From Gemmatimonadaceae bacterium (lineage in GTDB: Bacteria > Gemmatimonadota > Gemmatimonadetes > Gemmatimonadales > Gemmatimonadaceae), in assembly GCA_020851035.1 (NCBI GenBank), contig JADZDM010000023.1:62001-126000 (forward strand): DNA of 64,000 nt, read 5' to 3'. The notes under the pieces are model-generated. The model was not told the origin of the DNA, made no database searches, and saw only the letters and a program-made list of their open reading frames with translations. The position numbers and the translations under genes were made by a program. Numbering within the stretch: the stretch's first letter is position 1; each line of letters opens with the position of its first letter. Below, in pieces: positions 36,537 through 58,712 of the stretch.

Positions 36537-39500
36537 CTAGGCCAGCGACGGTACCGTCGGATCGCTTGGTGCCATGCGTCCTGGGCCGTCGGTACGATTC
36601 GCACGAGCCGCGGCCACCAGTTGCCGTTCCTTGACCAGTGAGTAAATGGCCGGTACCACTAGGAGGGTCAGGATGGTGCTGCTCACCATGCCTCCAATCA
36701 TGGGCGCGGCGATGCGCTTCATGACGCTCGCACCCGTACCGGTGCCCCACAGGATCGGCAACAATCCGATCATGGTCGACGCAACGGTCATCATCTTGGG
36801 CCGCACGCGTTCGACGGCCCCTTCGATCACGGCCTCGTAGAGGTCCTTCACCGTCGGCACCTTCCCGTCAGCACTGCGCTCGGCCCACGCGCTATTCAGG
36901 TAGACGAGCATGATGACGGCCGTCTCGGCCGCCACGCCGGCCAACGCGAGAAAACCGACCGTCACCGCCACCGACCACTCGTAATCGAGCGCCCACAGGA
37001 ACCAGATGCCGCCGATGAGCGTGAACGGAATCGAGAGCATCACAATCAGCGTCTCGCTGATGCTACCGAAGTTGAAGTACAGCAGCAGGAAGACGATGGC
37101 CAGTGTCGCGGGGACGACGAGCTGCATCTTTGCCGTGGCGCGCTCCATGTACTCGAATTGCCCACTCCATGCCATCGTGTAGCCTGCCGGAAGGACGAGA
37201 TCACGACTGACCACTTGCTTCGCGTCGGCGACGTAGCCCCCGATATCCGTTCCCTCGACGTCCACATACACCCAGGCAGTGGGCTGCGCGTCCTCCGTCC
37301 GGACGACCATTGGGCCCGAGACCTGACGGATGGTCGCGACCTGACCGAGCGGGATCTGGGCGGCACCGCGACTCGGAGCACGGCTGTTGGCGGTTGCCAT
37401 GCCATCGCCCATCGACGCGGGGGCTGTACCTGCGTCGTGGCTCACGGGAACGAGGACGGACGCCAGTCGTTCGGGCGTATCGCGCAGTTCCTGTGGGTAA
37501 CGCACACGGACGCCGTATCGCTCGCGGCCCTCGACGGTCTGCGTGATCGTCATCCCACCGATGGCAGCCGCAATCACCGTCTGGATGTCGCCGACGTTGA
37601 GGCCATGGCGCGCCGCGGCGACGCGGTCGATGTCGATGTCGAGGTAATACCCACTGACGGCTCGCTCGGCGAATCCGCTGCGCGTACCGGGCACCGTCTT
37701 GAGGAGTGACTCGAGCTCCTTGCCGAGCCGCTCGAGCGTGGCCAGGTCCGGCCCGAAGAGCTTCACACCAACGGGGGTGCGGATGCCAGTCGCGAGCATG
37801 TCGATGCGCCCCTTGATCGGCATCGTCCAGGCATTCGTCACCCCAGGCATCCTGACCGCCGAGTCCATGGCGGCGACGAGCCTGTCATAGGTCATACCGT
37901 CTCGCCATTCCGACTTCGGCTTGAGCGAGATCGTGGTCTCCGCCATGTCCAGTCCCGCTGGGTCCGTGGCGGTGTTCGCACGTCCCGCCTTGCCCCAGAC
38001 GCTGGCCACTTCAGGGAATGACTTCAGGATCGCGTCCTGCTGACGCAGCAATTCGCGCGCTCGGGCAACGCTGATCCCAGGCAGCGTTGACGGCATGTAC
38101 AGGATGGTGCCCTCCTCGAGCGGTGGCATGAACTCGCTGCCGATGCGCTGGAATGGGATGTACGTCACGATCAGCGCGGCCGCCGAGAGGCTGATCATTC
38201 CCCAGCGGTGCGCCATCACCCATGCGAGCACCGGGCGGTAGCCGCGAATCATCGCGCGGCTGAGTGGATTCTTCGCCTCGCGATAGATCTTGCCGCGGAT
38301 GAACAGGCCCATCAGCACCGGCACGAGCGTGATGCTGAGCAGACTGGCGGCGGCCATCGCAAACGTCTTCGTCAACGCCAATGGCTTGAAGAGGCGACCT
38401 TCCTGACCCTCGAGCGTGAAGACAGGGATGAAGGAGACCGTGATGATCAGGAGCGAGTAGAACAGCGACGGACCGACCTCCTTGGCCGAGGTCAGTACGA
38501 TGTCCATCCGCTCGCGTGTCGTCAGCGTGGCAGTATCGATGTGTGTCGCACCCGCGGGCGCCCGACGCTCGAGGTGCTTGTGCATGTTCTCCACCATCAC
38601 GATAGCCGCGTCAATCATCTCACCAATCGCAATGGCGATCCCGCCGAGTGACATGATGTCCGCGCCAATGTCGAAGGCGCGGAGGCCGATGAAGGCAATC
38701 AAGACACTGATCGGCAGCGTGATCACCGCCACAAGCGCGGAGCGCACGTGCAGCAGGAACACGACGCAGATGACCGCGACGATGATTGCCTCCTCCAGAA
38801 GCGTCTCACGCACCGTCCCGATGGACTCCTCGATGAGGGCGCTGCGGTCATAGACCGGACGCACGACGACCCCCGGCGGCAGTCCCGACTGGGCATCGCC
38901 AAGCTTTGCCTTGACGCGCTCGATGGTGGCGAGTGCATTCTCACCGAATCGCATCACGACGATCCCGCCGACCGCATCACCGCGCCCATCGAGGTCCGTG
39001 ATGCCACGGCGGACGGCAGGACCGACGGAGACACGACCGAGTTCGCGCACCCGGATCGGCGTGCCTGCCTTCGTCGCACCAACCACCACATTCTCGATGT
39101 CGCCAATGCCGCGCAGGTACCCGAGCCCACGCACCATGTACTCGCGCTCCGACAACTCCATCACCATCGCGCCGACGTCACTGTTGGCCGCCTGGATGGC
39201 GCTCATGACTCGAGTCAGCGGAACGCCGTACGCCTGCAGCCGCGTAGGGTCGATATCGACCTGATACTGCTTCTCGAAGCCGCCAACACTCGCCACCTCG
39301 GCCACGCCGGGTACTGCGGTGAGCGCGTACCGGAGATACCAATCCTGCACACCGCGGAGCTGTGCGAGGTCGAGGCGGCCGGTCGTGTCTTCGAGGGCAT
39401 ACTGATAAATCCAGCCCAGGCCCGTGGCGTCAGGACCGAGTGTCGGCGAGACGTTGGCAGGCAGCCGGCCCTTGATGCCGTTCAGATACTCGAGGACGCG

Positions 39501-39824
39501 CGACCGCGCCCAGTAGAGGTCCGTTCCGTCCTCGAAAATCACGTAGACGAAGGAGACACCGAAGAATGAATACCCTCGTACCGTGCTTGCACCGGGGACC
39601 TTGAGCATCTCGGCAGCGAGGGGATAGGTCACCTGGTCTTCGACGATCTTCGGCGCCTGCTCGCCGTATTCCGTCTGCACGATCACCTGCACATCGCTGA
39701 GGTCGGGCAACGCCTCCAGTGGTGTGTTCCTGATGGCCCAGATGCCGCCGAGCGACAGCGCCAGCGCCATGATGCCGACGATCAGGCGATTCTGCGCCGA
39801 CCACTCGATGAGTCGATTCAGCAT
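36537..39824 (-). CDS. cusA: CusA-type RND Cu(I)/Ag(I) efflux pump
   Basis: 1095 residues. Helix-4 motif AIAIGEMIDAAIVMVEN is the HME4 signature for monovalent Cu/Ag. The three methionines of the E. coli CusA export site are matched in LYMPSTLPGIS, LDMAETTIS and IDMLATGI. Other landmarks are EALPDLSDVQVIVQTEY, EDQVTYPLAAEMLKVPG and GSEFMPPLEEGT. Located five bases after cusB, third gene of cusCBA. It takes Cu(I)/Ag(I) from the periplasm or inner membrane and exports it through CusB/CusC. Confidence 0.95.
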   Translation of the reverse strand: MLNRLIEWSAQNRLIVGIMALALSLGGIWAIRNTPLEALPDLSDVQVIVQTEYGEQAPKIVEDQVTYPLAAEMLKVPGASTVRGYSFFGVSFVYVIFEDGTDLYWARSRVLEYLNGIKGRLPANVSPTLGPDATGLGWIYQYALEDTTGRLDLAQLRGVQDWYLRYALTAVPGVAEVASVGGFEKQYQVDIDPTRLQAYGVPLTRVMSAIQAANSDVGAMVMELSEREYMVRGLGYLRGIGDIENVVVGATKAGTPIRVRELGRVSVGPAVRRGITDLDGRGDAVGGIVVMRFGENALATIERVKAKLGDAQSGLPPGVVVRPVYDRSALIEESIGTVRETLLEEAIIVAVICVVFLLHVRSALVAVITLPISVLIAFIGLRAFDIGADIMSLGGIAIAIGEMIDAAIVMVENMHKHLERRAPAGATHIDTATLTTRERMDIVLTSAKEVGPSLFYSLLIITVSFIPVFTLEGQEGRLFKPLALTKTFAMAAASLLSITLVPVLMGLFIRGKIYREAKNPLSRAMIRGYRPVLAWVMAHRWGMISLSAAALIVTYIPFQRIGSEFMPPLEEGTILYMPSTLPGISVARARELLRQQDAILKSFPEVASVWGKAGRANTATDPAGLDMAETTISLKPKSEWRDGMTYDRLVAAMDSAVRMPGVTNAWTMPIKGRIDMLATGIRTPVGVKLFGPDLATLERLGKELESLLKTVPGTRSGFAERAVSGYYLDIDIDRVAAARHGLNVGDIQTVIAAAIGGMTITQTVEGRERYGVRVRYPQELRDTPERLASVLVPVSHDAGTAPASMGDGMATANSRAPSRGAAQIPLGQVATIRQVSGPMVVRTEDAQPTAWVYVDVEGTDIGGYVADAKQVVSRDLVLPAGYTMAWSGQFEYMERATAKMQLVVPATLAIVFLLLYFNFGSISETLIVMLSIPFTLIGGIWFLWALDYEWSVAVTVGFLALAGVAAETAVIMLVYLNSAWAERSADGKVPTVKDLYEAVIEGAVERVRPKMMTVASTMIGLLPILWGTGTGASVMKRIAAPMIGGMVSSTILTLLVVPAIYSLVKERQLVAAARANRTDGPGRMAPSDPTVPSLA

Positions 39825-39828: not shown

Positions 39829-41166
39829 TCACCTCGGCCGGTGTCCTGAGTGCGCTTCGGAGGTGTCCGACGGGTTCGCGCGCGCTGGCGAACGTGTCGG
39901 CCGTGCCGGCGGCTTTGGTGACGTCCTCGGCGCCGCCGTCGGCGGTATCGTCATCTCCATCCCCGGCATGTCACCCATACCACCGAGCGCCGTACCCAGG
40001 TTGGACTCCGCATCCACCAGAAAGGTCGCCGAGGCCACCACGGTATCGCCGAGCTGTAGCCCGCGCATCACCTGGATACGTTCAGCTGTAGCCACCCCGA
40101 GCGTGACGCTGCGGGGCTCGAGCTGACCGTCAGCGCGGCGTACAAACACCAGCTGACGCTCGCCTGTAGCCAGCACTGCGCCGCGCGGCACCGTCAGCAC
40201 GGCCGCACGCGCCGTCCCTGTGATGTTGACGGTGGCGTACATGCCGGGCTTCAGTCGCATTCCCCTATTGGTCACCTGCGCGCGCACCCGCGCCGTCCGT
40301 GTCTCCGGGGTCAGGGTGGGATAGATGTATGCGATGCGTCCAGTCCATCGCTCTCCAGGGTACGCATCCAACTCCGCATCGACGACCTGACCGACACGGA
40401 GACTGCGGAGGTCCTGCTCGTACACTTCGGCTTCGATCCAGACCGTGCTCAGATCGGCGACGCGAAAGAGTGCATCGCCGGCCATGATCCGCTGTCCCTC
40501 AGTCACCGCCTTTTCCGTGACGACTCCCTCCGCGCCCGCTCGGAGCGTGAGCGTCCGCTGCACCCGCCCTGTGCTTTCGATGCGCGCAATCTCGTCAGCG
40601 GAGATGTCCCAATAGGCGAGTCGCCGACGCGCCGACACGAGCAGATCATCGGCTCCAGATCGGGTCTCCGTCGTTGCCTCGGCGACCTCACCGGAGAGTC
40701 GCTTCGCAAGCAGCAATTCCTCTTGCGCGCTCACCAGCATCGGCGAGAAGATCGCGAGCAACGGATCGCCACGTCGCACCTGGAGACCGGTGAAGTTCAC
40801 GTACAGCCGTTCCACCCACCCATCGACCTTCGGTGAGATGGTGCGCACACGCGTCTCATCGACCACGACCTGGCCGGCCGCACGGATCTGTCCGGAGAGC
40901 TCCTCGAGCGTCACCGCTGCGAACGTGACGCCGATACGGCGCGCCTGATCTGAACTCAACATCACTGGGGCCGCGCTGTCGGCGCCTCGCGCCATCGCCG
41001 TGTGGTCCTCGCCTGCGGCGTCGGGCGTCGATGGCGTTCGCGTCACCCACCACGTCACGCCAAGCGCCGCAATGGGCAGCAAGACGACGGCCACGATACG
41101 TAGCACGCGCCAGCGTGGCTTGTCTTTAACGGGGGTGACGGGCGCTTCCTTGCCGATCTCTGGCAT
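39829..41166 (-). CDS. cusB: CusB-type periplasmic adaptor
   Basis: 445 residues. One N-terminal transmembrane/signal segment (LRIVAVVLLPIAALGVTWWV), then VRTISPKVDGWVERLYVNFTGLQVRRGDPL (barrel-sandwich), IFSPMLVSAQEELLLAKR (helical hairpin), VADLSTVWIEAEVYEQDL and PETRTARVRAQVTN (beta-barrel). The C-terminal ~45 residues are Met/Pro/Arg-rich. Its ATG shares a base with the cusC stop (TGATG). It belongs to the periplasmic metal-transfer part of the Cus exporter. Confidence 0.93.
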   Translation of the reverse strand: MPEIGKEAPVTPVKDKPRWRVLRIVAVVLLPIAALGVTWWVTRTPSTPDAAGEDHTAMARGADSAAPVMLSSDQARRIGVTFAAVTLEELSGQIRAAGQVVVDETRVRTISPKVDGWVERLYVNFTGLQVRRGDPLLAIFSPMLVSAQEELLLAKRLSGEVAEATTETRSGADDLLVSARRRLAYWDISADEIARIESTGRVQRTLTLRAGAEGVVTEKAVTEGQRIMAGDALFRVADLSTVWIEAEVYEQDLRSLRVGQVVDAELDAYPGERWTGRIAYIYPTLTPETRTARVRAQVTNRGMRLKPGMYATVNITGTARAAVLTVPRGAVLATGERQLVFVRRADGQLEPRSVTLGVATAERIQVMRGLQLGDTVVASATFLVDAESNLGTALGGMGDMPGMEMTIPPTAAPRTSPKPPARPTRSPARANPSDTSEAHSGHRPR

Positions 41167-42497
41167 CAGCGGGACCCTCCATCACGAGCTGGCGGGGATC
41201 GGCGCGGAGACACCGGAGGCGCTCCGACGAGCGGCTGCCCCACGATCATCTCCAGATCGCCCCAGGCACGTCCTTCTGCTGCGTCGAGGGCCAGCAGTTC
41301 CTGACGGTATCGGTTCACGGCCATGCGATTGTCGATGACGGTCATGAAATCCACGCCACCGGTGCGATACGACGAGAGCGATGATGTCGTAGCCGCTTCC
41401 GCCTGTGGCAGGATGCTGGAGCGGTAGAGCACACGCAGTCGACGCGCGCTGGTGAGCGCCGCGCGCACCTCCGTCAGGCGGCTGCGCGTATCTGCACGCA
41501 TGGCGATCAGTTCTGCTTCGGCCATCGCGCGCATCGCCACGCTTTCCTCACGCATCCGGAGCTGTCGTGATCCGGCAAAGATGGGCAGCGATGCCCCGGC
41601 CATCAGGCTGCCCATGCGGTCGATGCCCATGGGCATTCGGCGCTGGCCGTATTGGACGCCGAGCTGCAGGTCGGGCCAGAGTTCGCGGCGCGCCAGGGTC
41701 GCATCTGCGGCTGCGGCTCGTACGTCGGCTGCTCCAGCCGCAAGCATGGGCTGCGTTTCGGATGCCGCCTGCACGAATGTCTCCACGCTCGGCACCTCGT
41801 CTGGAAAGGCTGGAAGTACCGAACGCCCGGCGACGGCGTCGGGGGAGGTGTCTGCGGCCGCCGCCAGCCGAGCACTCGCGCCCTCGAGCATGGCCTCCAT
41901 CCGGACGATCTCCTCATCCATCCGGGCGATTTCCACGCGGGCGCGGAGCACGTCGGCCTGCCGTCCATCTCCGACGCGATACATCGCGGTGGCGACGGCC
42001 GCCACATCCTCCAGCAGCCGCCGCGTCTGCCGTGCAATGGTGAGCGCGCCCTCGAACTGGTAGCGCTCGTAGAACGCCATTGCGGCCGCGGACCGCGCCG
42101 TCCACAGCGCATCCGCAGCACGTGCGTGCACGGCATCAGCGCGGGCGCGGGCTGCGCGGCCAGCAGCGGACAGTTTCCCGGGAAACGGGACCATCTGCAT
42201 GAGCTGCAGCTGCACCATGCCGAGCGCCTCATCGGGCCGGAGCGAGGGCAGCGAGTAGTTCATGAAGCCCACCTGCAGTTCGGGATCCGGCGGACGCCGC
42301 ACGCCCGGGATCCGTGCATCAGCGGCGCGCGCGAGGGCTCTTGCGGCTTGCACGCGAGGACTCCGACTCGCGACCAGCGCATACACCGAGTCGAGCGTCA
42401 GCGCCGACGGAGCACTCTCGAGCGGGGGCACGACTTGGGCGACTACCGGCGTGCCCATCACCGTCCCGATGAGGAGCACGCCGCAGGCTCGTGGCAC
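41166..42497 (-). CDS. cusC: CusC/TolC-type outer-membrane factor
   Basis: About 443 residues if GTG 42497 is the start, which leaves a short signal peptide (ACGVLLIGTVMGTPVVAQ). The mature protein is Ala-rich and helical with two efflux-protein repeats (SPRVQAARALARAADARI ... SSYRTGGVDFMTVIDNRMAVNRYRQELLALDAAEGRAWGDLE). Repeated Met in NYSLP...MVQLQLMQMVPFP is a feature of Cus-type channels. The start is uncertain: the open frame continues to 42878 but the extra region has no coding character. First gene of cusCBA. Confidence 0.85.
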   Translation of the reverse strand: MPRACGVLLIGTVMGTPVVAQVVPPLESAPSALTLDSVYALVASRSPRVQAARALARAADARIPGVRRPPDPELQVGFMNYSLPSLRPDEALGMVQLQLMQMVPFPGKLSAAGRAARARADAVHARAADALWTARSAAAMAFYERYQFEGALTIARQTRRLLEDVAAVATAMYRVGDGRQADVLRARVEIARMDEEIVRMEAMLEGASARLAAAADTSPDAVAGRSVLPAFPDEVPSVETFVQAASETQPMLAAGAADVRAAAADATLARRELWPDLQLGVQYGQRRMPMGIDRMGSLMAGASLPIFAGSRQLRMREESVAMRAMAEAELIAMRADTRSRLTEVRAALTSARRLRVLYRSSILPQAEAATTSSLSSYRTGGVDFMTVIDNRMAVNRYRQELLALDAAEGRAWGDLEMIVGQPLVGAPPVSPRRSPPARDGGSR

Positions 42498-42846
42498 AGA
42501 CCACCGGGACCAGACGCCTCGATCACCTCGATGCGCCCTTGCAGATGCTGCAGTGGTCTGACACCAGTGGTGGTGTCCGCCGTTCACATCCGACAATGGG
42601 ATCACCTCGAAGGGGGCAACGCTCCCGGCACGGCGCGGCACCGCGCGCGTTGACCGGTCCATCAACGCGTCACGTGGACTCCTCTGGTGCTCAGGTTCAC
42701 GATACCTCCACGCGGCGAGCCGCTGCGTCGGGGTTTTGACAGACCCGTGTCCGTGTTCGCCTGACACTTGACACTCGGCCTGAGGTACGTCGCATGGCGC
42801 GCCGCCGTCTCGACTCGGCGCTGATGTGAGTTCGAGGCGACCGCGC
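42498..42846. other. Gap upstream of cusC
   Basis: About 350 bases between the cusC start and the 3' end of the CopB ATPase gene. I see no gene, no strong hairpin and no clear dyad; a TTGACA at 42736 on the plus strand has no matching -10 and points away from cusC. Confidence 0.45.
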
Positions 42847-45099
42847 TCACAACGACGTGCGACGAAGGAGCTGCGCATTGATCGCCACGATGATCGTGCT
42901 CAGTGACATCAGCACCGCCGCGAGCGCTGGCGTGAGGAGAATCCCCCACGGCGCGAGCGCGCCGGCGGCCAGCGGAATCGCCACTACGTTGTAACCCGCC
43001 GCCCACCAGAGATTCTGGATCATTTTGCGATAGCTCGCGCGCGACAGGGCGATGATCCGCGGAATGTCGCGCGGGTCACTGCGCACGAGGACCACGTCGC
43101 CCGCTTCCACGGCGACGTCCGTGCCGGCCCCGATGGCAATGCCGACATCGGCGGTGACGAGCGCCGGCGCGTCGTTGACGCCATCGCCGATCATCGCAAC
43201 GCGCTTTCCCTCCTGCTGCAGTCGCTCGATGTGCGATGCCTTCTCGTCAGGGAGCACCTGCGCCAGTACCGTGTCGATTTTGAGTTCCTTGGCGACCGCA
43301 TCCGCGACGGCTTTTGCGTCGCCGGTCATCATGACCACCTCGATCCCCGCCTCGTGAAGTCGATTCACCGCCTCCACTGATTCTGGCCGGATCGCGTCTG
43401 CGACGGCAAAGGCGGCGAGCGTCCGCTCACCCTCGACGAGGTAGATCACTGCCTGTCCCCGTGTTGCCGCTGCCTGCGCAAACTTCACGAGCGATGCGGC
43501 GGGCGTCACCTTCAGCTGGGCCAGCAGGTTGGGGCCACCCGCCGCCAGCGCCCGTCCCGCCACGGTCGCGCGCACGCCGCGCCCGGGAATCGCTTCAAAC
43601 GAGGTCGCGGCACCAGGCGTGATGCCTCGGTCGGTGGCGCTCAGCACAATCGCACGCGCCACTGGATGCTCGGCGTCGTGTTCGAGCGCCGCGGCCAGTG
43701 ACAGCGCGTCCTCCTCGGAGAGCCCCCCGTCCGTCGCCATCGCGACCACGCGGTGTTCACCAAGCGTGAGCGTCCCGGTCTTGTCGAAGACGACCGTCGT
43801 CACGCGTCGCGCTTCCTCGAGACCGCGTCGATCACGGACCAGCAGGCCATTTCGGGCACCGAGTGTCGTGGAGATCGCCAGCACGAGCGGCACGGCCAGC
43901 CCGAGCGCGTGAGGACACGCGATCACGAGTACCGTGACGAAACGTTCGATGGCCACCGCGACAGTCGCCCCGCTCAGCAGCCACGCGACGAGGGTGATCA
44001 CGCCAGAGCCGAGCGCCACCCACGTCAGCCAGAACGCAGCTCGATCCGCGAGCGCCTGGGCGCGTGATCGCGAGGTCTGCGCCTGCGCGACCAATCGCAT
44101 GATTCCGGCGAGCGCGGTGCGATCACCTGTGCCCGTCACCTCAATCCGGAGCGCACCGGTGCCATTGATCGCGCCTGCGATCACCGTGGCACCGATGTCC
44201 TTCGGCACCGGCGCTGACTCTCCTGTCAGGAGCGCCTCGTCGACGCTGCTGCGACCATCACGGACCACGCCGTCCGCTGGAACGCTCGCTCCCGGTCGCA
44301 CCAACATGATGTTGCCGATGACGAGGTCGTTGACCGAGACCTCCTCGAGCGCTTCGCGACCGTCGGCGGCCACGGTCACGCGCGTCGCCATGTCGGGCAG
44401 CAACTTCGCGAGCTCACCCAACGCGCCCTGTGCCTGCGAGATGGACCGCATCTCGAGCCAGTGGCCCAGCAGCATCACGGTGATCAGCGTGGCCAGTTCT
44501 TCCCACAGCGGCATGCCGGGAAAGCCGAGCGTTACCGCCAGGCTGAAGACGAACGCGACACTGATCGCGAGGGCGATGAGCGTCATCATGCCGGGCAGCC
44601 GATCCGCGATCTCGCGCGCGGCGCCTTTCAGGAACGGTGTCCCGCCGTAGATGAAGAGCACCGTGCCGAACAGCGCCGGTACCAAAGTGCTGCCCGGGAA
44701 ACCGGGTGGTGCGTATCCGAACGCGCTGGGCAGCATGTGGCCCCAGACGAGCGTCGGCAGCATCAGCGCCAGTGACCACCAGAACTTGTCCCGGAACAGG
44801 GCGACCGAGTGACCGGCGTGCTTGTCGTGGCCTTCATGACCCGCGGCGGGGCCGCCATGATCGTCGTGTCCGCCGCCGCGCTTCGGGTCGTCAGCTCGGG
44901 TCACATTCGACGGCTTCGACGTGGCGTTCGCGTGTGTCGCGAGGTTGGAGCCCTGCGCCGCACCCTGCTCCCCGTGCGCGGGATGATCACGAGCGACGTG
45001 TGGTGCCACGACGTCTGCGTCTGGGCCATCACCGCTCGTGACGCTCGGGTGGCCCGCGCCATGATCGGCGTGCTCTCTGGTTGACGATGGATCGGTCAT
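42847..45099 (-). CDS. copB: CopB-type (P1B-3) copper P-type ATPase
   Basis: 750 residues. No HMA domain; instead a ~100-residue N-terminal His/Asp/Gly-rich tail (for example GGGHDDHGG, GHEGHDKHAGHS). Helix-4 motif IACPHALGLAVPL (CPH) assigns it to P1B-3, reported to export Cu(II)/Cu(I) or Ag(I). TGESAPVPK, DKTGTLTLGEH, EHPVARAI and GDGVNDAPALV complete the P-type core, with NYNVVAIPLAAG in the final helices. It is divergent from the blaI/M56 pair, with two copies of the shared operator between them. Confidence 0.94.
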   Translation of the reverse strand: MTDPSSTREHADHGAGHPSVTSGDGPDADVVAPHVARDHPAHGEQGAAQGSNLATHANATSKPSNVTRADDPKRGGGHDDHGGPAAGHEGHDKHAGHSVALFRDKFWWSLALMLPTLVWGHMLPSAFGYAPPGFPGSTLVPALFGTVLFIYGGTPFLKGAAREIADRLPGMMTLIALAISVAFVFSLAVTLGFPGMPLWEELATLITVMLLGHWLEMRSISQAQGALGELAKLLPDMATRVTVAADGREALEEVSVNDLVIGNIMLVRPGASVPADGVVRDGRSSVDEALLTGESAPVPKDIGATVIAGAINGTGALRIEVTGTGDRTALAGIMRLVAQAQTSRSRAQALADRAAFWLTWVALGSGVITLVAWLLSGATVAVAIERFVTVLVIACPHALGLAVPLVLAISTTLGARNGLLVRDRRGLEEARRVTTVVFDKTGTLTLGEHRVVAMATDGGLSEEDALSLAAALEHDAEHPVARAIVLSATDRGITPGAATSFEAIPGRGVRATVAGRALAAGGPNLLAQLKVTPAASLVKFAQAAATRGQAVIYLVEGERTLAAFAVADAIRPESVEAVNRLHEAGIEVVMMTGDAKAVADAVAKELKIDTVLAQVLPDEKASHIERLQQEGKRVAMIGDGVNDAPALVTADVGIAIGAGTDVAVEAGDVVLVRSDPRDIPRIIALSRASYRKMIQNLWWAAGYNVVAIPLAAGALAPWGILLTPALAAVLMSLSTIIVAINAQLLRRTSL

Positions 45100-45317: not shown

Positions 45318-45332
45318 TTTATGCATGATAAA
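45318..45332. promoter_or_regulatory. Operator copy 1 (TTTAT-N5-ATAAA)
   Basis: TTTATGCATGATAAA, one of four TTTAY-N5-RTAAA palindromes in the window, in the copB/blaI divergent region ~220 bases upstream of copB. Strikingly A/T-rich in a very GC-rich setting. Candidate binding site of the BlaI-family repressor. Confidence 0.72.
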
Positions 45333-45385
45333 GGATGAGTGCAACCCACGGCCCTCGTGCCTCACGGCCAGGGCGGGCAGAGTGC

Positions 45386-45419
45386 CCGGGCCGGGCCGGC
45401 CCGGCCCGGCCCGGCCCGG
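45386..45419. repeat. GGCCC-type repeat with a perfect 24-bp palindrome
   Basis: A run of CCGGGCC/GGCCC units; 45386-45409 is an exact 24-bp palindrome of only G and C, followed by more GGCCC units to 45419. It lies between the two operator copies and could extrude as a hairpin. Confidence 0.85.
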
Positions 45420-45453
45420 TTCCCGCCTTGTCCGACTTGCCCGGCTCGTGCAG

Positions 45454-45468
45454 TTTATGCATCATAAA
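45454..45468. promoter_or_regulatory. Operator copy 2 (TTTAT-N5-ATAAA)
   Basis: TTTATGCATCATAAA, one base different from copy 1 and 136 bp away. It ends 35 bases before the GTG start of the BlaI-family gene, suited to autorepression. Confidence 0.75.
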
Positions 45469-45503: not shown

Positions 45504-45989
45504 GTGCCCAGCAAGCGCAGCACTGGAACTGCACCGCGCGGCATTCGCGTCGCGCCGACGTCGCCGCTCCCGCCCCAGTTGCACGACACCATCCGTCTCT
45601 CAGCCGACGGCTTGGCGAAGGTGCTCGGCGATCTGGAAGCGCGCGTGATGGCGGCCATGTGGCGCCTCGGTGCGCCTGCCACCGGGCGCGCGGTTCACGC
45701 GCAGGTCGCAGCGACGCATCAGGTGGCGCTGCTCACGGTGATCACGGTCCTCAACAAGCTGGTGCGGAAGCATCTGCTCCGACGCGAGGAGCGCGACGGG
45801 CTGCTGCATTTCGAGGTCACGATGACCGAGGCGGCCTTCATGGCGCATGCGAGTCGCCGCGTCGTCGAGGGGATCCTGTCATTCAGTTCGGATGCCATGG
45901 CGGCATCGCTGGTCGACGTCCTCGCCGAGCGTGACCCGGATCAGCTGGCGGAACTGGCGCGCCTCATCGAGGAGCGACTGAAGTCGTGA
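45504..45989 (+). CDS. BlaI/MecI/CopY-family repressor without cysteines
   Basis: 161 residues, with a GTG start. The central ~80 residues form the BlaI winged helix (DLEARVMAAMWRLG..., then VALLTVITVLNKLVRKHLLRREERDG as recognition helix and wing), and the C-terminal helices serve dimerisation. There is no cysteine at all, so it cannot sense Cu(I) directly like CopY; relief of repression would require proteolysis by the M56 protein encoded 21 bases downstream, as in BlaI/BlaR1. The genomic context (copB, cus, mco) argues for a copper regulon instead of a beta-lactam one. Confidence 0.88.
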   Translation: MPSKRSTGTAPRGIRVAPTSPLPPQLHDTIRLSADGLAKVLGDLEARVMAAMWRLGAPATGRAVHAQVAATHQVALLTVITVLNKLVRKHLLRREERDGLLHFEVTMTEAAFMAHASRRVVEGILSFSSDAMAASLVDVLAERDPDQLAELARLIEERLKS

Positions 45990-46010
45990 TGACGTCGTGT
46001 GTGCGAGTCG

Positions 46011-47060
46011 ATGCCTGACGGCAGCGCCCACACGCTGACGCTACGTCGCGGCGTCGACGAGCGGGAGGCGCGACATCGGCGAAGGCTGTTGTTCGTCATT
46101 GGCATCCTGCTTCTCGCCGCGACGAGCCCCGTGATGGTGCACCACGCCACGGGTGAGATCGGGACACTGCTCGACGGTCGCGACCACCTCTGGAGCATCT
46201 GCCTGATCGCGCTGCATCAGCTGCTCGACCCAGTGCATTCCGTCTTTCACGTACTGCTCATCGGCGGCGTCGCGTACGCCGTGATTGACCGTGCCCGTGC
46301 CTGGTGGCGCCTCCGTACGACGCTCGGCCTGATCCTTGCGCGGCCCGTCGTCTCGACTGACGGAACATTCGTCGCGGCACGCGCAGCGGCGGTGCCAACG
46401 GACTCGATCCGGCTCGTCGATGGGCTGCCAATTCCCGCCTTCACCATCGGCTGGTTCCGTCCCGTCATCCACGTCAGCACGGAGCTGGAGGGTCAACTTT
46501 CGCAGGCGCAGCTCGCTGCGGTGCTGGCACACGAGTACGCCCATGTCCGCCGACGCGACCCGCTTCGCCTCACGGTGCTGCGTGCGCTGGGGTGTCTGCT
46601 GTTCTGGCTGCCCGCCATGCGACGGCTGGCTGCCGATGTGGCGGACGACGCGGAGATCATCGCAGACGACTTTGCGGTGCGCGGCGATCCTGTCGCGCTG
46701 GCCTCCGCGATCCTGGCGCTCGCGCAGTGGCGCGCGCCGGGTCGCACCGGCGGTGCGTCGTTGCAGCACGGCGGCGCCATCGTCGGTTTCCATCGTGACG
46801 CCATGCTCGACCGGCGGATCAACCGTCTCCTCGGCAACCAATCGAGCATCACCTCGCAGGTGACGAAGCCATCGCTGTTCGGCGCCGGCGTGGCCCTCCT
46901 GCTCGCGTGGGGTTCAGGCCTTGCCGTGGCCCACCCGATGACCAGCCACAGTGACCACTGCACGCACACGCGACTGGCGGCGTACGAACATGTCTTCTGT
47001 CTCGTTGGCCACACTGCCTCGACGGCCCGCGATTGTCCACATCATGGCGACGGCGGCTGA
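46011..47060 (+). CDS. M56-family membrane metalloprotease, BlaR1-like sensor
   Basis: 349 residues from ATG 46011 (GTG 45999 also possible). Membrane helices near residues 27-45, 62-92 and ~298-312 flank the gluzincin motif HEYAH (His174, Glu175, His178), with DDAEIIADDFAV downstream as the third-ligand region. BlaR1 and MecR1 carry a penicillin-binding sensor domain after the last helix. Here there is only a ~40-residue tail that is rich in possible metal ligands: about ten His and three Cys (including HPMTSHSDHCTHT, EHVFC, and DCPHHGD). I infer an extracytoplasmic copper sensor that, when loaded, triggers cleavage of the BlaI-type repressor. Confidence 0.85.
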   Translation: MPDGSAHTLTLRRGVDEREARHRRRLLFVIGILLLAATSPVMVHHATGEIGTLLDGRDHLWSICLIALHQLLDPVHSVFHVLLIGGVAYAVIDRARAWWRLRTTLGLILARPVVSTDGTFVAARAAAVPTDSIRLVDGLPIPAFTIGWFRPVIHVSTELEGQLSQAQLAAVLAHEYAHVRRRDPLRLTVLRALGCLLFWLPAMRRLAADVADDAEIIADDFAVRGDPVALASAILALAQWRAPGRTGGASLQHGGAIVGFHRDAMLDRRINRLLGNQSSITSQVTKPSLFGAGVALLLAWGSGLAVAHPMTSHSDHCTHTRLAAYEHVFCLVGHTASTARDCPHHGDGG

Positions 47061-47111: not shown

Positions 47112-47627
47112 ATGCATCGCTCCGTGATCCACCTCATCGCCGTCGCCACTGCCATCACGATTGGCGCACCTGCGGCGCATGGCTCCGTGCGCGATGACGC
47201 ACACGCATCCGACTCGACGCGGGCGTCGACGATGCCGGCGACGGTGACGGATTCCGCCGACGTCGCCGGCGTCGTCAATGCATACCACCGCGCGCTGGCC
47301 GCCGGTGACAGCGCCGCCGCCATGACGCTGCTGGCGCCTGATGCCATCATCCAGGAGAGCGGCAGCGTGGAGACGCGAAGCGACTATGCGGGGCACCACC
47401 TCCCCGGCGACATGCGCTTCGCGCAGGCATTGCCCGGCGTGCGGAGTGCGCAGCGCGTCGTCGTCGTCGGCGACGTCGCGTGGAGCACCTCGACCAGTGT
47501 CACCAAGGGGAAGTACCGTGACCGTGACATCAATTCCGTGGGTGCGGAGTTGATGGTGCTCGGGCGCGTTGATGGTGTGTGGCGGATTCGCGCCATTCAC
47601 TGGTCGTCGCGGACACCACGTGCGTGA
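47112..47627 (+). CDS. Secreted NTF2-like (DUF4440/SnoaL-type) protein A
   Basis: 171 residues. Signal peptide (HLIAVATAITIGAPAAHG), a Thr/Ser/Asp-rich linker, then an alpha+beta cone fold from ~residue 50: VVNAYHRALAAGDSAAAMTLLAPDAIIQESG, then strands ending GVWRIRAIHWSSRTPRA. Proteins of this group bind small ligands or have no assigned role. It follows the M56 gene by 51 bases and probably shares its transcript. A decayed partial copy lies at 48745-48966 and a relative at 49092-49643. Confidence 0.8.
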   Translation: MHRSVIHLIAVATAITIGAPAAHGSVRDDAHASDSTRASTMPATVTDSADVAGVVNAYHRALAAGDSAAAMTLLAPDAIIQESGSVETRSDYAGHHLPGDMRFAQALPGVRSAQRVVVVGDVAWSTSTSVTKGKYRDRDINSVGAELMVLGRVDGVWRIRAIHWSSRTPRA

Positions 47628-47851
47628 TCCAAGGCTGAACGTGCGGGCTCACCTTTTGAGAGTCTTGGGCTCTTGCAGACGAAACGCTCAGCAGACGCTC
47701 ACACAACTTGTTCATTCAAGTCCGCCCCTCTCCCAGCGCGTGAATCGCACGCTTGATCCACATATTGCACAGCGTTCAACATGCTCGTCGCGCCCGAGGC
47801 CGTTGTACAATCGATGATCCGTGTCCGCACCAACTCACCAGAGGTTTGCAT

Positions 47852-48655
47852 ATGGAATTAAAGGCTGCCATCGGAAAGCTAGAGCGCCTTGGACCCGTTC
47901 AGTCGTTGCTTCGGCGTCGCTATGTCCGGCGATTCGCAACCGTCCATGGCACGAATTGCTGGTTGGGCGTCTACGGCAGCTTCGAGGAGGCGCTGCGCGC
48001 GGCACCGCAGACCGCACCGGTCGGGTACAATCATGCGTCGGCGGCATCGCTGTACGAAGATATGGTGAATCGCGTCCAGGCAAAAGACTATCCGGCGCTC
48101 TACTGGTTGCGTCGGACGCTCGACCGCGCGTCGACGGTGTTCGATTTTGGTGGAAACGTCGGGATATCGTATTACGCGTATCAGAAGTACCTGGCTGGCT
48201 GCGGGCCGTCACATTGGACCGTCTGCGATGTGCCAGCGGTGATCAATGCCGGAAGCCGACGGGCTGTCGAGCAAGGCGCCACAGCGCTCCAGTTCACCAG
48301 CAGTTTTTCAGACGCGTCCGGTTGCGATGTGCTCTTCACGGCTGGCACGTTGCAGTACATCGAGTCACCGTTCGACGCGCTCGTAGAGACGCTTTTCAGG
48401 CGTCCGGCGCACATTGTGGTCAACATGATGCCGACGTTACCGGATCGCACGGTGATCACGCTGCAGAATATCGGCATCAGCTATTGCGCATACCGGATCA
48501 TCGAGCGCGGGGCGCTCGCACCGGCGCTGCAACGGCTGGGCTACGTTCTCGAAGATGAGTGGATCAATCCGGAGACCCGTACTCGCATGCCTTACGCGGA
48601 CGATATGCCTGGGATCACCTGGATCGGTCAATATTACCGGCTGGCGGTTTCGTGA
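47852..48655 (+). CDS. TIGR04325-type methyltransferase
   Basis: 267 residues, with GAGG seven bases before ATG 47852. SAM-binding glycine motif VFDFGGNVGISYYAY (residues ~95-110), then WTVCDVPAVINAG, DVLFTAGTLQYIE and HIVVNMMP, the order seen in TIGR04325 methyltransferases, usually found in surface-polysaccharide loci. Its base composition is visibly less GC-rich than its neighbours. It sits between an NTF2-like gene and a decayed copy of that gene, with no polysaccharide genes nearby, so it looks like cargo acquired separately. Confidence 0.85.
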   Translation: MELKAAIGKLERLGPVQSLLRRRYVRRFATVHGTNCWLGVYGSFEEALRAAPQTAPVGYNHASAASLYEDMVNRVQAKDYPALYWLRRTLDRASTVFDFGGNVGISYYAYQKYLAGCGPSHWTVCDVPAVINAGSRRAVEQGATALQFTSSFSDASGCDVLFTAGTLQYIESPFDALVETLFRRPAHIVVNMMPTLPDRTVITLQNIGISYCAYRIIERGALAPALQRLGYVLEDEWINPETRTRMPYADDMPGITWIGQYYRLAVS

Positions 48656-48744: not shown

Positions 48745-48966
48745 TTCCGGGCGACATGCGGTTCGCGTAGGCGCTCGCATGGTTCGGAGTGCGCAGCGGG
48801 GGCCGTCGGCGGCGGCGCGTGGGACACCTCGACCAGCGTCACCAAGGGTGAGTACCGTGACCGCGACATCAATTCCGTGGGTGCAGAGTTGATGGTGCTT
48901 GCACGCGTTGGTGGCGCGTGGCGGATTCGCGCCATTCACTGGTCTTCGCGCACGCCGCGCAGCTGA
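48745..48966 (+). pseudogene. Decayed copy of NTF2-like gene A
   Basis: The DNA from 48745 (GGCGACATGCG...) to the TGA at 48966 closely matches the 3' half of the gene at 47112-47627. The last ~46 codons read TSTSVTKGEYRDRDINSVG... through WRIRAIHWSSRTPRS, nearly the same protein ending. Upstream, an in-frame TAG (near 48768) and indels break the frame, and only a signal-peptide-like stretch (RRTAVLSALALGVVICTVS, ~48680-48740) remains of the N terminus. Confidence 0.8.
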
Positions 48967-49091
48967 TCGTCCGCACCATCGTTCGCACTCACGGTCCGCT
49001 GGCATCACCCGTTCGCCCGTGCCCGCGGTGCCGCATGCCGGAGCACGTCCACCCGTTCATCACCTGACCCTCTGCACCGAGCGAGCCTCCG

Positions 49092-49643
49092 ATGCGTCCC
49101 GTGACTGCAGCGCTGTCCACGCTACTTCCCGCCATTGTCCTGAGTGCGATTGTCGCGCCTGCCGCAGCGTCTGCGCCGGCCAACGATGGCACACGCTCGT
49201 CGACTGCTACGCCTGCCGCCAGCATGTCCGACAGCACGGACGCCATCGCAACGCTCCGCGCCGTCTTCGCCGCAGCGGAGCGCGGTGACCTGCTCGCGCT
49301 GGACTCGCTGTATGCCGGTGAGAGCCTGACCGTGGTGGAAGGTGCGGGCATCAACCGCGGCTGGGCTGACTACCGCGATCATCATCTCGGTCCTGAAATC
49401 AAGGTGATGAAGAACTTCGTGTACCGGCCCGAGGAGATCGAGGTGCACGTCGCCGGCACGACCGCATGGACGACGTTCCGGTACACGCTCAAGGCCGACA
49501 TGAACGGCCGGTCGATTGACAACGTCGGACGTGGCACAGCGATCCTGATCCGGCGAGGCACCGCCGCCAATGGCCGGTGGGTGGTGCGCCACATCCAGAC
49601 GAGCTCGCGCGCGCGGCGTGCGGGTGATCCGCCCGCGACCTGA
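49092..49643 (+). CDS. Secreted NTF2-like (DUF4440-type) protein B
   Basis: 183 residues. Signal peptide (LSTLLPAIVLSAIVAPAAASA), a Ser/Thr/Ala linker, then an NTF2-like domain: AIATLRAVFAAAERGDLLALDSLYAGESLTVVEGAG, DYRDHHLGPEIK and paired strands with TTAWTTFRYTLKAD, ending WVVRHIQTSSRARRAGD. Related to protein A in architecture but diverged. A ~70-bp remnant related to its C-terminal half is at 54354-54427. No function assigned; recurrence in the copper section suggests a link. Confidence 0.8.
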   Translation: MRPVTAALSTLLPAIVLSAIVAPAAASAPANDGTRSSTATPAASMSDSTDAIATLRAVFAAAERGDLLALDSLYAGESLTVVEGAGINRGWADYRDHHLGPEIKVMKNFVYRPEEIEVHVAGTTAWTTFRYTLKADMNGRSIDNVGRGTAILIRRGTAANGRWVVRHIQTSSRARRAGDPPAT

Positions 49644-49700: not shown

Positions 49701-49717
49701 CACTTTACGAGGAGTAA
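49701..49717. promoter_or_regulatory. Operator copy 3 (CTTTAC-N5-GTAAAG)
   Basis: CTTTACGAGGAGTAAAG: six-base arms, five-base centre, the same geometry as the copB/blaI copies. Upstream of the copC remnant and the TonB receptor gene. Confidence 0.7.
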
Positions 49718-49784
49718 AGGAGCGGTCATCTTCGGGCTCATGTGCGGCGGAACAGTCGGTCAGCCGGCGTGTCGCCCTCGTCTC

Positions 49785-50153: not shown

Positions 50154-52522
50154 ATGCCCACCTTCGTCAAGCTTCAACGCTCGCGGCTACATCGCAGAGT
50201 GATTGCGCTCCTCGGCCTCGCCTCCGCCCTCGCGGCAAGTCCACTCGCGGCGCAGGAGACAGGAGGCGTCGCGACTGCGCGCGGTCAGGTCGTGACCCCA
50301 GCTGGAGTTCCGGTACCGCGCGCGACCATCGAGTTGCTGCCCGCCGCGGGACGCGCGGGACGCACTGTGCGCACCGATGACAATGGACGCTTCATGTTGA
50401 CGACACCCGCCGCCGGTCGTGCGCGACTGCGTGCGACGTCCATCGGATACGTACCCTCGAGCGTCGAGGTCGACCTCGTCATCGGGCGCGAGGTGACGGC
50501 GAACATCACCCTCGTCGCAATGCCGTCGGTCCTGAATCAGGTCGTGGTGTCCGCCTCGCGCAGCGGCCAGGAACTGGCCAAGGTTCCCGCATCCGTCAGC
50601 GTCGTCTCGGCGGACGTCATTCAGGGGACTGGTCGTCGTAACACGAGCGTGGAAGAAGCATTGCGGAACGTGCCGGGCGTCGTCGTCCGCGACCAGCTTG
50701 GCGGTGCTTCGCGCGCCACCATCGCGATCCGCGGTGCTGGCTCCTCGAACACCTTCGGTATTCGCGGCATCAGGCTCCTGATCGACGGCGTGCCGAAGAA
50801 CAATGCCGGCGGCTCCGGACAGGATCTGGCCAACCTGGACATGTCGTCCATCGCCAGCATCGAAGTGCTCCGTGGCCCTGCGTCAACGTTGTACGGGAAT
50901 CAGGCCGGCGGTGTCGTCTCCATGACGAGCGAGGCCGGAGGCGAGACTCGGCGGCAGGGCAGGTCCTCGGCGGGAGCTTCGGCTTCGCCCGCGTGCACGC
51001 CAAGGCCACCGGCGACGCATTCGGTGGAACCGTGGGATACCTGTTCAGCGCGTGGCGCACGCAGCAGGACGGTTATCGCGACAACTCCAACTTTGACCAG
51101 ACGGGGTTCTCGTCCAAATTCGTCTTCAAGCCGGACGCAAAGAGCACGATCACCGCAGTCATGTCGTACGACAATCTCGGGCAGGACGTGTCTGGTGGCC
51201 TGACCGAAGGCGAGATGCGCGCGACCCCGCGCATCGCGGACTCCACCTCGTTCGCGCGGGTGGGCGGCGTGCGTCTCGACAACTTCGGGCGCTTCGACGA
51301 ATTCCGCTTCGGCCTGAATGTGCAACGGGCACTGACGGCGACCGAGCAGTTCGAGACACAGCTGTTCTATGTGCCGCGGACGATCCACGAAGGCCCTGCC
51401 CTGACACAGTTCATTCAGCAGGGCTTCGAGAACCGCGGCGTGACCGCACGCTTGCTGTCCACCCGGCCCATCGGTTCAGTTGGGAGTCGCTTCACGACGG
51501 GCGTGGACTTCCACGACACGCCCATCCAGACGACGACCACCGGACGGCCCGGCACGGCGGCGGCGGGCACCGCCTTCTCCTCGTTCGACGAACAAGCCAC
51601 CGCGGTGGGCGTCTACGCGTTGGAGGAGCTCGCCCTCGGCACGAAGGTCACCCTGACGGCCGGCGCCCGGTACGACAACATCCGCTTCGCGCAACAGAAC
51701 AAGCTGCGGAGCGCTCAGACGGAGCCTCGCACCTTCACGCGGACGACGCCCAAGATCGGCCTCACGTACCGCGTGAACCCCTCGCTCTCCACCTTCGCGA
51801 ACTTCAGCGAGTCGTTCGAGGCTCCGGTCATCGGCAACCTGCGAAACTCTCCCCGGACGGATGGGGAGTTCATCACGAACCAAGTGGTGAAGCCGCTGAC
51901 GATCCGGACGCTCGAGGTCGGGACGCGAGGCGTGGTTGGTCGTGGCTCCTTCGAGCTCACCGTCTTCACGCAGCGGCTGCGTGACCAGCAGGTGAACGTG
52001 AACTTCGTGCGTCCTGCACCGCTCACCGGACAGTTCGGTGCGCTGGTCAACGCCGCCGAGGTCAAGCAGTCAGGTGTGGAAGCAGGAGCCAAGGTGTCGC
52101 TCACGAGCGCACTCACCTTGGCCGGCACATACACATACTCGGACTTCAGCTACTCCCGCTACGAAGCCGGTCCGAACAACTTCAGTGGCAATGAGCTCCC
52201 CGGAATCCCGAAGCACAATGGATTCGTGGAACTGCGTTATCAGGATTCACGTGGGCTGTCGGGCGGAATCGAGTACCAGTCGGTCGGGAAGTTCTTCGTG
52301 AATGATGCGAACACGGCCGAGAATGCGGCGTACTCGCTCGTCAACCTTCGGGCGGGCTGGGCACTGCAGCTCGGCCGCACGCAGTTCGCCCCCTTCGTGG
52401 CGGTGAACAACGTGTTCTCCGAGAAGTACTCGTCACAGCCGCAGATCAACGCTGGCGCAGGTCGATTCTTCAACCCGCTCCCCGAGATCAACTACGCGAT
52501 GGGGCTGAAGATCAATTGGTAG
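50154..52522 (+). pseudogene. TonB-dependent receptor with a single-base frameshift
   Basis: ATG 50154 starts a signal peptide (VIALLGLASALAASPLAAQ), a carboxypeptidase-regulatory-like domain (~residues 45-125), then the plug: RNTSVEEALRNVPGVVVRD, ...IEVLRGPASTLYGNQAGGVV. At about 50950-50960 (CGGCGGCAGGGCAGG) the coding frame changes by -1, as if one G were missing. From there a second frame continues as a clean 22-strand-type barrel to PEINYAMGLKINW, ending in Trp. Both halves are otherwise intact, so it is either a recent mutation or a sequencing/assembly error. If repaired, the receptor would be ~790 residues. Substrate: a metal complex is inferred from the neighbours only. Confidence 0.85.
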
Positions 52523-52531: not shown

Positions 52532-52569
52532 GACGTCGCACTGGTGCTCGTTTGCACCAGTGCGACGTC
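52532..52569 (+). terminator. Strong hairpin after the TonB receptor
   Basis: Perfect 16-bp stem (GACGTCGCACTGGTGC and its complement) with loop TCGTTT, ten bases after the receptor stop. No T run follows. It overlaps the beginning of the longest open frame of the next gene, which argues for a later start there. Confidence 0.6.
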
Positions 52570-52652
52570 GTCGACCGTTCGTCATGGGCATGCGATGTCT
52601 CTCACGTTCCCATTTGTCCGTGTACCGGGTCGCCACCAACGGGGAGCATGCC

Positions 52653-54131
52653 GTGATTGCATCACGAGCGAAGGGACAGATTGCCACCTGGCATCGGTGG
52701 CTGGGCTTGGGGCTGACGGTGCCGCTGCTCGGATGGATCATCTCCGCCGCGGTGATGATGCTCGTCTCGATGAATGCACCGAATGGCCTCGCGGGCATTT
52801 ACGCGCTGAATCCCTACAACTCGGTGGACGTCCGACTGGATGCGGCGACGGTGGATCCGAACACGATCCTTCAGCAGCTCTCGTCAGTCCATCACCTCGA
52901 GCGCATCTACTGGCTGCGACTGCAGTCTCGTGGTCCGCATCTCTGGTACGTCGTGAAGCCAACTCCCTTCGCGCTGGCCATGGTGTTCGATGCGCGCACC
53001 GGAGAACGTCTGGACCCGCTCCCGGACTCGTTACTCGCGACCGTGGCTGGCGAGGCGCTCGTCGGTGCCCGAGTCGTGAAGCTGGAGTCCGCGACCGAGT
53101 ACAATCGCTACTACACGGTTGATCGCCTCCCGGTTGTCCGAGCGCATGTCGACGGACAACAGGAAGCCCGGCTGATCCTCTCGCGTGACGAGGGCCGCAC
53201 GCTTCGCCGCTTGAACGCGGAGTCCGAACGCTTCGAGTGGTGGTATCGCGCGGCCCACGTCAATCAGTTCAGCGCCCACATGGGCCTCTGGACCACACTG
53301 CTCTACCTTTGCGGCGCCGCGGTGATCGTGACCAGCGTGTTCGGCTACATGCTGTTTTGGTGGCGGCGGCCGCGCGCACCTGCAGCCACCCAGGTTGAGC
53401 AGGCCGGACGGCCATGGATGCGCGCGCGGAATCTGCACCGGAAGCTTGGCGTCGTCGCAGGGGGGATCCTCGCCATCCAGATGCTCGTCGGTGCGTATCT
53501 CTGGCTCAGCCTCGGACCGCTGGAAGATCCCTTCCGTGGGAAGACGAGCTTCAGCACCGATTGGCAGGGAGGGTTCTCGACACAGCAGTCGGTCGCGACG
53601 CCGAACGAGGTGCTCAGCCGCGTCGCTGCATCGTTGCCGCCAAGCCCGCGCCCGGTCCAGGCAATCGAGTGGTGGCGGCTCGGCGAGCAGGATGCGTGGG
53701 CGATCACCACGCGCATGGACGAGCCGACGCGCGTCGTCACCGCCTCCGGCGTGTCGATGCAGTCGCTCACTGCTGCTTTGGCCGGCGAAATCGCGCGGCA
53801 GGAGGTCGTCGGCCATCCGCCCTTCGTGTTGGTGGGCGCCTCGACGCAGCTCTCGACGGATCTCAATCGAGTTTTGCCCGTCTACCGGTTTCGATTCGAT
53901 GACCCACAGCGCACCGACGTGTACGTCTCCAATACCACCGGGCAGGTCATTCAGCGCCGCCCATTTTTCTGGCGCATGTTCGGTCCATTCCTGGCCGTTC
54001 ACATGTTTTCGTTCACGGGAAACAAGACCTTCGACGTGATACTCCTGGCATCATTTCAGCTCCTCGTCCTCGGCATGATCGCCTCCGGGTGGCGCGTGCG
54101 TTTCCCTGGAAAGACCAGCCGTGAAGCCTGA
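52653..54131 (+). CDS. PepSY-associated transmembrane protein
   Basis: 492 residues from GTG 52653, which follows GGGGAG by six bases (ATG 52584/52590 are alternatives with no clear ribosome site). Helices near residues 17-40, ~210-235, ~262-285 and ~460-480 surround two PepSY-type periplasmic regions; HRWLGLGLTVPLLGWIIS, HVNQFSAHMGLWTT and NLHRKLGVVAGGILAIQMLVGAYLW match the family. These proteins are often ferric-siderophore reductases or accessory factors encoded next to TonB receptors, as here. Copper or iron reduction is plausible but not shown. Confidence 0.82.
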   Translation: MIASRAKGQIATWHRWLGLGLTVPLLGWIISAAVMMLVSMNAPNGLAGIYALNPYNSVDVRLDAATVDPNTILQQLSSVHHLERIYWLRLQSRGPHLWYVVKPTPFALAMVFDARTGERLDPLPDSLLATVAGEALVGARVVKLESATEYNRYYTVDRLPVVRAHVDGQQEARLILSRDEGRTLRRLNAESERFEWWYRAAHVNQFSAHMGLWTTLLYLCGAAVIVTSVFGYMLFWWRRPRAPAATQVEQAGRPWMRARNLHRKLGVVAGGILAIQMLVGAYLWLSLGPLEDPFRGKTSFSTDWQGGFSTQQSVATPNEVLSRVAASLPPSPRPVQAIEWWRLGEQDAWAITTRMDEPTRVVTASGVSMQSLTAALAGEIARQEVVGHPPFVLVGASTQLSTDLNRVLPVYRFRFDDPQRTDVYVSNTTGQVIQRRPFFWRMFGPFLAVHMFSFTGNKTFDVILLASFQLLVLGMIASGWRVRFPGKTSREA

Positions 54132-58694: not shown

Positions 58695-58712
58695 GCGTCG
58701 GGAATGGGTATG

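Follow-up and report, generated by a model that had tools for sequence, protein, structure and literature searches.

A BlaI/M56 Repressor–Protease Pair in a Copper Island of a Gemmatimonadaceae Bacterium and Its Probable Role in Copper Sensing

Results

A BlaI/M56 Gene Pair Lies within a Copper Island

The window, a stretch of 64,000 nucleotides from a Gemmatimonadaceae bacterium, contains adjacent genes for a BlaI-like repressor and an M56 membrane metallopeptidase, located among genes for copper efflux and oxidation. The genes of this island are as follows.

36537–39824, minus strand: CusA-type RND pump (PF00873, 775 bits)
39829–41166, minus strand: CusB-type adaptor (PF16576, 264 bits)
41166–42878, minus strand: TolC-type outer-membrane channel (PF02321)
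42847–45099, minus strand: copper-translocating P1B ATPase (copB) with a His-rich N-terminus, divergent from blaI (TIGR01511)
45504–45989, plus strand: BlaI/MecI/CopY-family repressor (blaI), 161 aa, GTG start (PF03965)
45999–47060, plus strand: membrane metallopeptidase of family M56, 353 aa, lacking a penicillin-binding sensor domain (PF05569)
47112–47627, plus strand: DUF4440 (SnoaL-like) exported protein, whose relatives elsewhere are preceded by operators
49092–49643, plus strand: second DUF4440/SnoaL-like exported protein
50157–52522, plus strand: TonB-dependent receptor, split over two frames (PF07715, PF00593)
52560–54131, plus strand: PepSY-associated membrane protein (PF03929)
54451–55410, minus strand: CopD (PF05425, 78 bits)
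55909–57270, minus strand: multicopper oxidase (PF07732 and PF07731)
57267–58826, minus strand: outer-membrane efflux channel (CusC type), likely start 58694 (PF02321)
59415–62615, minus strand: second CusA-type RND pump (PF00873, 774 bits)
62621–63994, minus strand: second CusB-type adaptor (PF16576)

The P1B ATPase scored 565 bits against TIGR01511, as compared with a cut-off of 397. A Met-rich exported protein of 172 aa without a Pfam match is encoded at 58827–59345, in the interval that separates the channel gene from the second CusA gene. A direct repeat of 165 nt (86%; 47465–47629 and 48804–48968) copies the 3' part of the DUF4440 gene and flanks a methyltransferase-like ORF (47753–48655), as if the latter had been inserted with partial duplication. 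The frame break of the TonB receptor, near 50930–51000, is either a frameshift or an assembly error. Rfam gave no match in 36000–64000, which led us to reject the idea that the long TonB-receptor leader holds an RNA element.

The Repressor Lacks the CopY Metal Site

The repressor scored 66.7 bits against PF03965 (Penicillinase_R; Pfam cut-off 22.6), and the protease 42.8 bits against PF05569 (cut-off 31), in agreement with the gene coordinates and content given in an earlier sequence-only reading of this DNA. BlaI, MecI and CopY form one repressor family, and the solved structures closest to the repressor are 2g9w and 2k4b. The same reading had stated that the repressor has no cysteine and hence cannot sense metal itself. 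The first part is correct, as its 161 residues include no Cys; moreover, CxC was absent from all 50 orthologues examined, in which the C-terminal CxCxxxxCxC site was not encountered. The second part is too strong, as His could bind metal. Three His, namely H65, H72 and H102, all located in the helix-turn-helix half, are conserved among the BlaI orthologues. The CopY model of NCBIfam, TIGR02698, gave 23.6 bits on the repressor, far under its cut-off of 121.95, and a search of the sequences upstream in 50 loci did not find the cop box TACANNTGTA. A CopY-type self-sensing repressor was rejected on the basis of the missing CxC, this low score and the missing cop box. Read by eye, the Asn-Phe of the Staphylococcus aureus BlaI cleavage site was not obviously kept.

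The M56 Protease Carries Two Conserved His/Cys Clusters

Four features were located within the protease gene.

46140–46250, plus strand: loop between membrane helices 1 and 2 and the start of helix 2, codons 48–84
46530–46544, plus strand: zinc-protease motif HEYAH (H178-E-Y-A-H182), codons 178–182
46653–46667, plus strand: BlaR1-type third-ligand motif E219xxxD223
46932–47057, plus strand: C-terminal His/Cys tail, codons 312–353, consensus HPL...HC.H...HLFC...CPH

The catalytic residues H178, H182, E219 and D223, which make up the HExxH and ExxxD gluzincin motifs, were identical in 51 of 51 aligned orthologues. The last membrane helix spans approximately residues 292–311 and the chain stops 42 residues later; accordingly, neither Pfam nor the end of the chain gave any sign of a penicillin-binding domain of the class D type. 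We found that the 42 residues of the tail include 8 His and 3 Cys, consistent with the earlier description of a protease that keeps HEYAH and carries a His/Cys tail of about 40 residues in place of the penicillin-binding domain. The absence of this domain led us to reject a β-lactam sensor.

Among the 51 aligned orthologues, C321, H331 and H348 of the tail were conserved in 51, C334 in 50, C346 in 49, H320 in 47, H312 in 46 and H323 in 44. His and Cys account for eight of the ten best-conserved tail positions, and outside the HPL, (H)C.H, HLFC and CPH elements the tail varies freely in length and sequence. The tail His/Cys are therefore not a matter of chance, being kept while the other tail positions vary. 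A second cluster of seven conserved His/Cys, which the earlier reading had not noted, was found in loop 1, namely H48 (41 of the 51), H49 (50), H63 (48), C68 (51), H73 (47), H80 (50) and H84 (51). Apart from the two His of HExxH, residues 110–280 include no conserved His. The conserved Cys of loop and tail number four, and could form disulfides instead of a metal site.

The AlphaFold2 model of the protease had a mean pLDDT of 82.6, with residues 335–353 below 50, so that a metal site in the tail cannot be modelled. The best structural match of the model in Foldseek was S. aureus BlaR1 (E 3e-4), and its superposition on BlaR1 structure 8exs gave Z 14.5 and rmsd 4.0 over 213 aligned residues. 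The alignment runs from residues 13 to 268 of the model on residues 24 to 288 of BlaR1, with nothing before BlaR1 residue 24, and hydropathy gave no further N-terminal helix. As the alignment starts at residue 24, helix 1 of the modelled protease is probably the counterpart of the second BlaR1 helix, and the loop that of the EL1 region; in the structural alignment, the loop 1 cluster matches the BlaR1 region containing the extracellular loop EL1. BlaR1 homology, hydropathy, charge and the model together suggest that the zinc-protease site is cytoplasmic and that loop 1 and the tail are periplasmic.

An Operator-like Dyad Is Confined to the Copper Island

A 15-bp dyad, TTTAY-N5-RTAAA, likewise missing from the earlier reading, occurs four times in the 4.97-Mb genome, in every case inside the copper island, over a span of 13.4 kb; the expectation for the window is 0, and the reversed pattern has no copy in the genome. 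The copies, none of which is assigned a strand, are listed below.

45318–45332: operator dyad 1, TTTATGCATGATAAA, 219 bp upstream of the copB start
45454–45468: operator dyad 2, TTTATGCATCATAAA, ending 36 bp upstream of the blaI GTG
49704–49718: operator dyad 3, TTTACGAGGAGTAAA, upstream of the TonB-receptor/PepSY genes
58714–58728: operator dyad 4, TTTACTGTGCGTAAA, 20 bp upstream of the likely start 58694 (minus strand)

Dyad 3 lies near the long upstream TonB-receptor frame, about 440 bp ahead of the likely start 50157, and dyad 4 precedes an operon for the outer-membrane channel, multicopper oxidase and CopD. The genome holds just two copies of TTTATGCATNATAAA, both located between the divergent blaI and copB genes. 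A GC repeat of the (GGCCC)n type lies between dyads 1 and 2 (45380–45425), where a long hairpin is possible (fold z-score −2.1). No sigma-70 promoter or terminator was found in this divergent region by a scan that is uninformative for this GC-rich phylum.

The dyad of the relatives, TTTAC/T-N5-A/GTAAA, was always 15 bp long, in a scan that allowed spacings of 3 to 9. The clade loci contained 107 dyads in 47 of 54 loci, as compared with none in the 18 control loci and with approximately 0.18 expected from base composition, computed on a nearly identical set of clade loci; a perfect dyad was missing in the other seven. In 26 relatives, the strict dyad was found 53 times versus 8 for the reversed control, and about 38 of the 53 lay within 10 kb of the protease gene. 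The genes located directly behind the dyads could be grouped into a few clusters, namely multicopper oxidase, blaI, CusC channel, DUF4440, CopC/CopD, CopB, DUF4198 and others. A Pfam check of example genes confirmed these families and added a Cys-rich four-helix DUF326 protein and DUF305. We also noticed a signal-peptide family, 'QTDYFNTDAGRP', of about 280–290 aa, repeatedly located behind the dyad (L053:7522-8394, L047:279, L054:7349, L062:8476, L076:425 and L091:9652). Its L053 member has no Pfam match, and the family is possibly an unrecognised outer-membrane copper protein.

The Pair Is Linked to Copper Genes across the Clade

Clear orthologues of the M56 protein, roughly 60, were found in 179 genomes of the family, with a score gap to other M56 proteins. 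The same gap appeared when 395 genomes of the phylum were searched with a profile; the full-length proteins, gene fragments being left aside, had E values near 1e-84 to 1e-26. A scan of named genomes gave 43 loci, all from Gemmatimonadota. A BlaI orthologue lay directly upstream of every full-length M56 gene examined in the clade. A copper gene, defined as a copper ATPase, CusA, multicopper oxidase or CopC/D, was present in 49 of 54 clade loci (831 kb) as compared with 0 of 18 control loci (295 kb; Fisher p about 8e-13, a value that is optimistic because some clade loci are near-duplicates or come from one genome, while the contrast itself is not in doubt). As controls we took loci surrounding other M56 or BlaI genes in the phylum, unmatched for BlaI similarity; the four further BlaI genes of this genome were among them. 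These controls and the genome-wide dyad count led us to reject chance placement beside copper genes. Another M56 group of the phylum (L172–L179; about 400–430 aa, profile E about 1e-20) is not part of the system, as it has no BlaI of this type, copper genes or dyad.

Short BlaI/M56 Pairs beyond the Phylum

A plasmid search with the window M56 protein gave no match at 1e-5, and distant relatives appeared only at E up to 1. Plasmid-borne pairs of BlaI and a short M56 protein (about 280–330 aa) in Bacillota, Pseudomonadota and Actinomycetota adjoin metal genes: CopZ, a P-type ATPase and a four-helix copper protein in Priestia; CopC–CopD in Paenibacillus lautus and P. urinalis; TolC, an adaptor and CusA/CzcA in Pseudoalteromonas, Glaciecola, Shewanella and Salmonella IncC; and a multicopper oxidase in Streptomyces. 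The link of BlaI/M56 with metal genes is not universal, as arsenic genes adjoin a Peribacillus copy and the second P. lautus copy has unrelated neighbours. A DUF3147–BlaI–M56–TolC–adaptor–CusA/CzcA cassette was observed on conjugative plasmids of Shewanella (L192, plasmid of Shewanella sp. ANA-3) and, once, Salmonella (L193, S. enterica IncC pYULZMPS10).

These plasmid pairs resemble the window pair in gene order, with BlaI followed by M56 beside copA/copZ, copC/copD, TolC–CusA or multicopper oxidase genes. They differ from it in that their M56 proteins show only partial, weak similarity to the window protein and have other His/Cys patterns. The Alteromonadales-type proteins have HWHH and WH in the loop, HH..H at the C-terminus and almost no Cys; the loop of the Priestia protein carries HH and CC..H, and a tail is missing from this protein. 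Because the copper-linked short M56 proteins of Bacillota are tailless, the tail is not a general requirement, and the sequence patterns of this small sample suggest that the loop is the more general sensor part.

Discussion

A Proposed Model of Copper-Triggered Proteolysis

The data presented above indicate that the BlaI/M56 pair almost certainly controls copper-resistance genes of a soil-type bacterium. The sequence-only reading, which regarded the pair as re-purposed for metal sensing, is well supported with regard to copper control by the gene context, the genome-wide uniqueness of the operator and the His/Cys conservation. Judging from conserved residues, the pair probably senses copper via His/Cys on the outer side of the membrane. 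We consider it likely that the pair senses copper, probably Cu/Ag, in such a way that loop and tail bind the metal, the M56 protease cuts BlaI and the regulon is derepressed. The same reading had placed the sensor in the tail. It is unlikely, however, that the tail is the entire sensor, as the loop 1 cluster is equally conserved and copper-linked M56 proteins of Bacillota have no tail.

At low copper, a BlaI-like dimer would sit on TTTAC/T-N5-A/GTAAA and repress its own operon, the copper ATPase and the other dyad operons. The position and genome-wide uniqueness of the dyad are direct observations, from which we infer that BlaI binds it. The M56 protein would reside in the inner membrane, with its protease site facing the cytoplasm and loop 1 and the C-terminal tail facing the periplasm. 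Rising periplasmic copper may then be bound by the His/Cys of loop and tail, perhaps bridging both. The EL1 loop of BlaR1 is lodged in the sensor domain, and the drug displaces it (PMC9834060). In the window protein, metal bound by loop and tail might replace this domain, linking the two parts as the BlaR1 sensor domain holds EL1. By analogy with BlaR1 and PetP, a conformational shift would activate the protease, BlaI would be cut, and the genes for copper efflux and oxidation would be derepressed.

Alternative Explanations

Other explanations of the same data differ in what is sensed and by which protein. The pair may control the island while M56 senses copper stress indirectly, through periplasmic disulfide or redox changes at C68, C321, C334 and C346, with the His being secondary. 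The even number of conserved Cys on the presumed periplasmic side, as well as the oxidases and PepSY proteins of the island, would fit this explanation. We nevertheless regard it as rather unlikely, as at least ten conserved non-catalytic His are hard to explain by disulfides, and the Alteromonadales relatives located by CusA-type pumps have His (HWHH, WH, HH..H) and almost no Cys. That the true inducer is another metal (Zn, Cd or Ni) or a mixture, the copper genes being part of a general metal island, seems to us improbable. From their sequences, CusA/CzcA-type RND pumps and TolC channels cannot be assigned to one metal, and Shewanella-type relatives lie by CusA/CzcA pumps, one of them with a HupE/UreJ gene; however, the genes behind the dyads belong to copper families (multicopper oxidase, CopC, CopD, TIGR01511 ATPase and Cys-rich DUF326).

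There is little likelihood that BlaI senses copper itself in a CopY-like manner with unusual ligands, with M56 only clearing BlaI or being incidental. Such sensing would be in keeping with the shared BlaI/MecI/CopY family and the conserved H65, H72 and H102; against it stand the lack of Cys in the repressor, the lack of CxC in all 50 orthologues (0/50), the position of the conserved His in the helix-turn-helix half, the TIGR02698 score of 23.6 against a cut-off of 122, and the fact that the M56 gene never occurs without blaI in the clade. The explanation to which we give almost no credence is an ordinary BlaI/BlaR pair for β-lactam or cell-wall stress placed by chance beside copper genes, as the family names and the other BlaI genes of the genome, which have no copper neighbours, might suggest. 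The missing penicillin-binding domain, the confinement of the dyad to the copper island and the contrast of 49/54 with 0/18 loci with copper genes all argue against this. Taken together, copper sensing by the loop and tail of M56, followed by cleavage of BlaI, is the reading that we prefer.

CueR, CusRS/CopRS and CsoR are the regulators usually invoked for copper resistance in Gram-negative bacteria; a whole branch of the phylum appears to control copper by regulated proteolysis instead. We lean, by a narrow margin, towards the wider view that the pair represents an undescribed regulator family that serves many Gemmatimonadota as their main copper switch, that copper held between loop and tail takes over from the antibiotic-sensing domain of BlaR1 and triggers repressor cleavage, and that the design of a bare M56 protease with a metal-binding loop recurs in several phyla with other ligands. 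BlaI/M56 annotations beside metal genes, often read as antibiotic resistance, should accordingly be read as metal regulation.

Comparison with Known Systems

Our literature search, with subscription journals mostly outside its scope, found nothing relevant on BlaI/M56 copper control in Gemmatimonadota. BlaR1/MecR1 sensors have four membrane helices, with the N-terminus outside. The window pair resembles BlaR1/BlaI of S. aureus in the operon of repressor and M56 protease, the HExxH and ExxxD motifs, the membrane-protease fold and the divergent orientation of operon and resistance gene. In contrast to BlaR1, the window protein has a His/Cys loop and tail instead of the transpeptidase-like sensor domain, and, as judged from the model, appears to lack the first membrane helix. 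CopY of Enterococcus and Streptococcus shares the repressor family and represses a copper ATPase, whereas the window repressor has no CxCxxxxCxC, its presumed operator is TTTAY-N5-RTAAA and not the cop box, and a membrane protease is added.

The closest precedent is PetR/PetP of the cyanobacterium Synechocystis sp. PCC 6803, in which copper causes a PetP-dependent loss of PetR (PMC7896320, PMC13421787). Because this system already performs copper-triggered proteolysis of a BlaI-family regulator, the mode of control is not categorically new, and the earlier claim of a distinct mode of copper control does not hold; the novelty lies in the anatomy of the sensor and in a regulon for copper resistance. 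PetP-like BlaR homologues have been reported from several phyla of marine bacteria, with their role stated as still to be found (PMC10141476). Both systems combine a BlaI-family regulator with a BlaR-family membrane protease that has no β-lactam role, a likeness drawn from the published description of PetP; in the window, the two genes are adjacent and the protease has no PBP domain. However, PetRP switches plastocyanin and cytochrome c6, whereas the window dyads lie on efflux, oxidase and CopC/D genes; no petE/petJ-type target was found, as all four genomic dyads lie inside the copper island. How PetP becomes activated by copper was left open in PMC7896320. The Gemmatimonadota clade supplies about 60 natural variants in which a candidate site is obvious and the operator is clean, which makes the question of copper sensing by M56 proteases testable by mutation.
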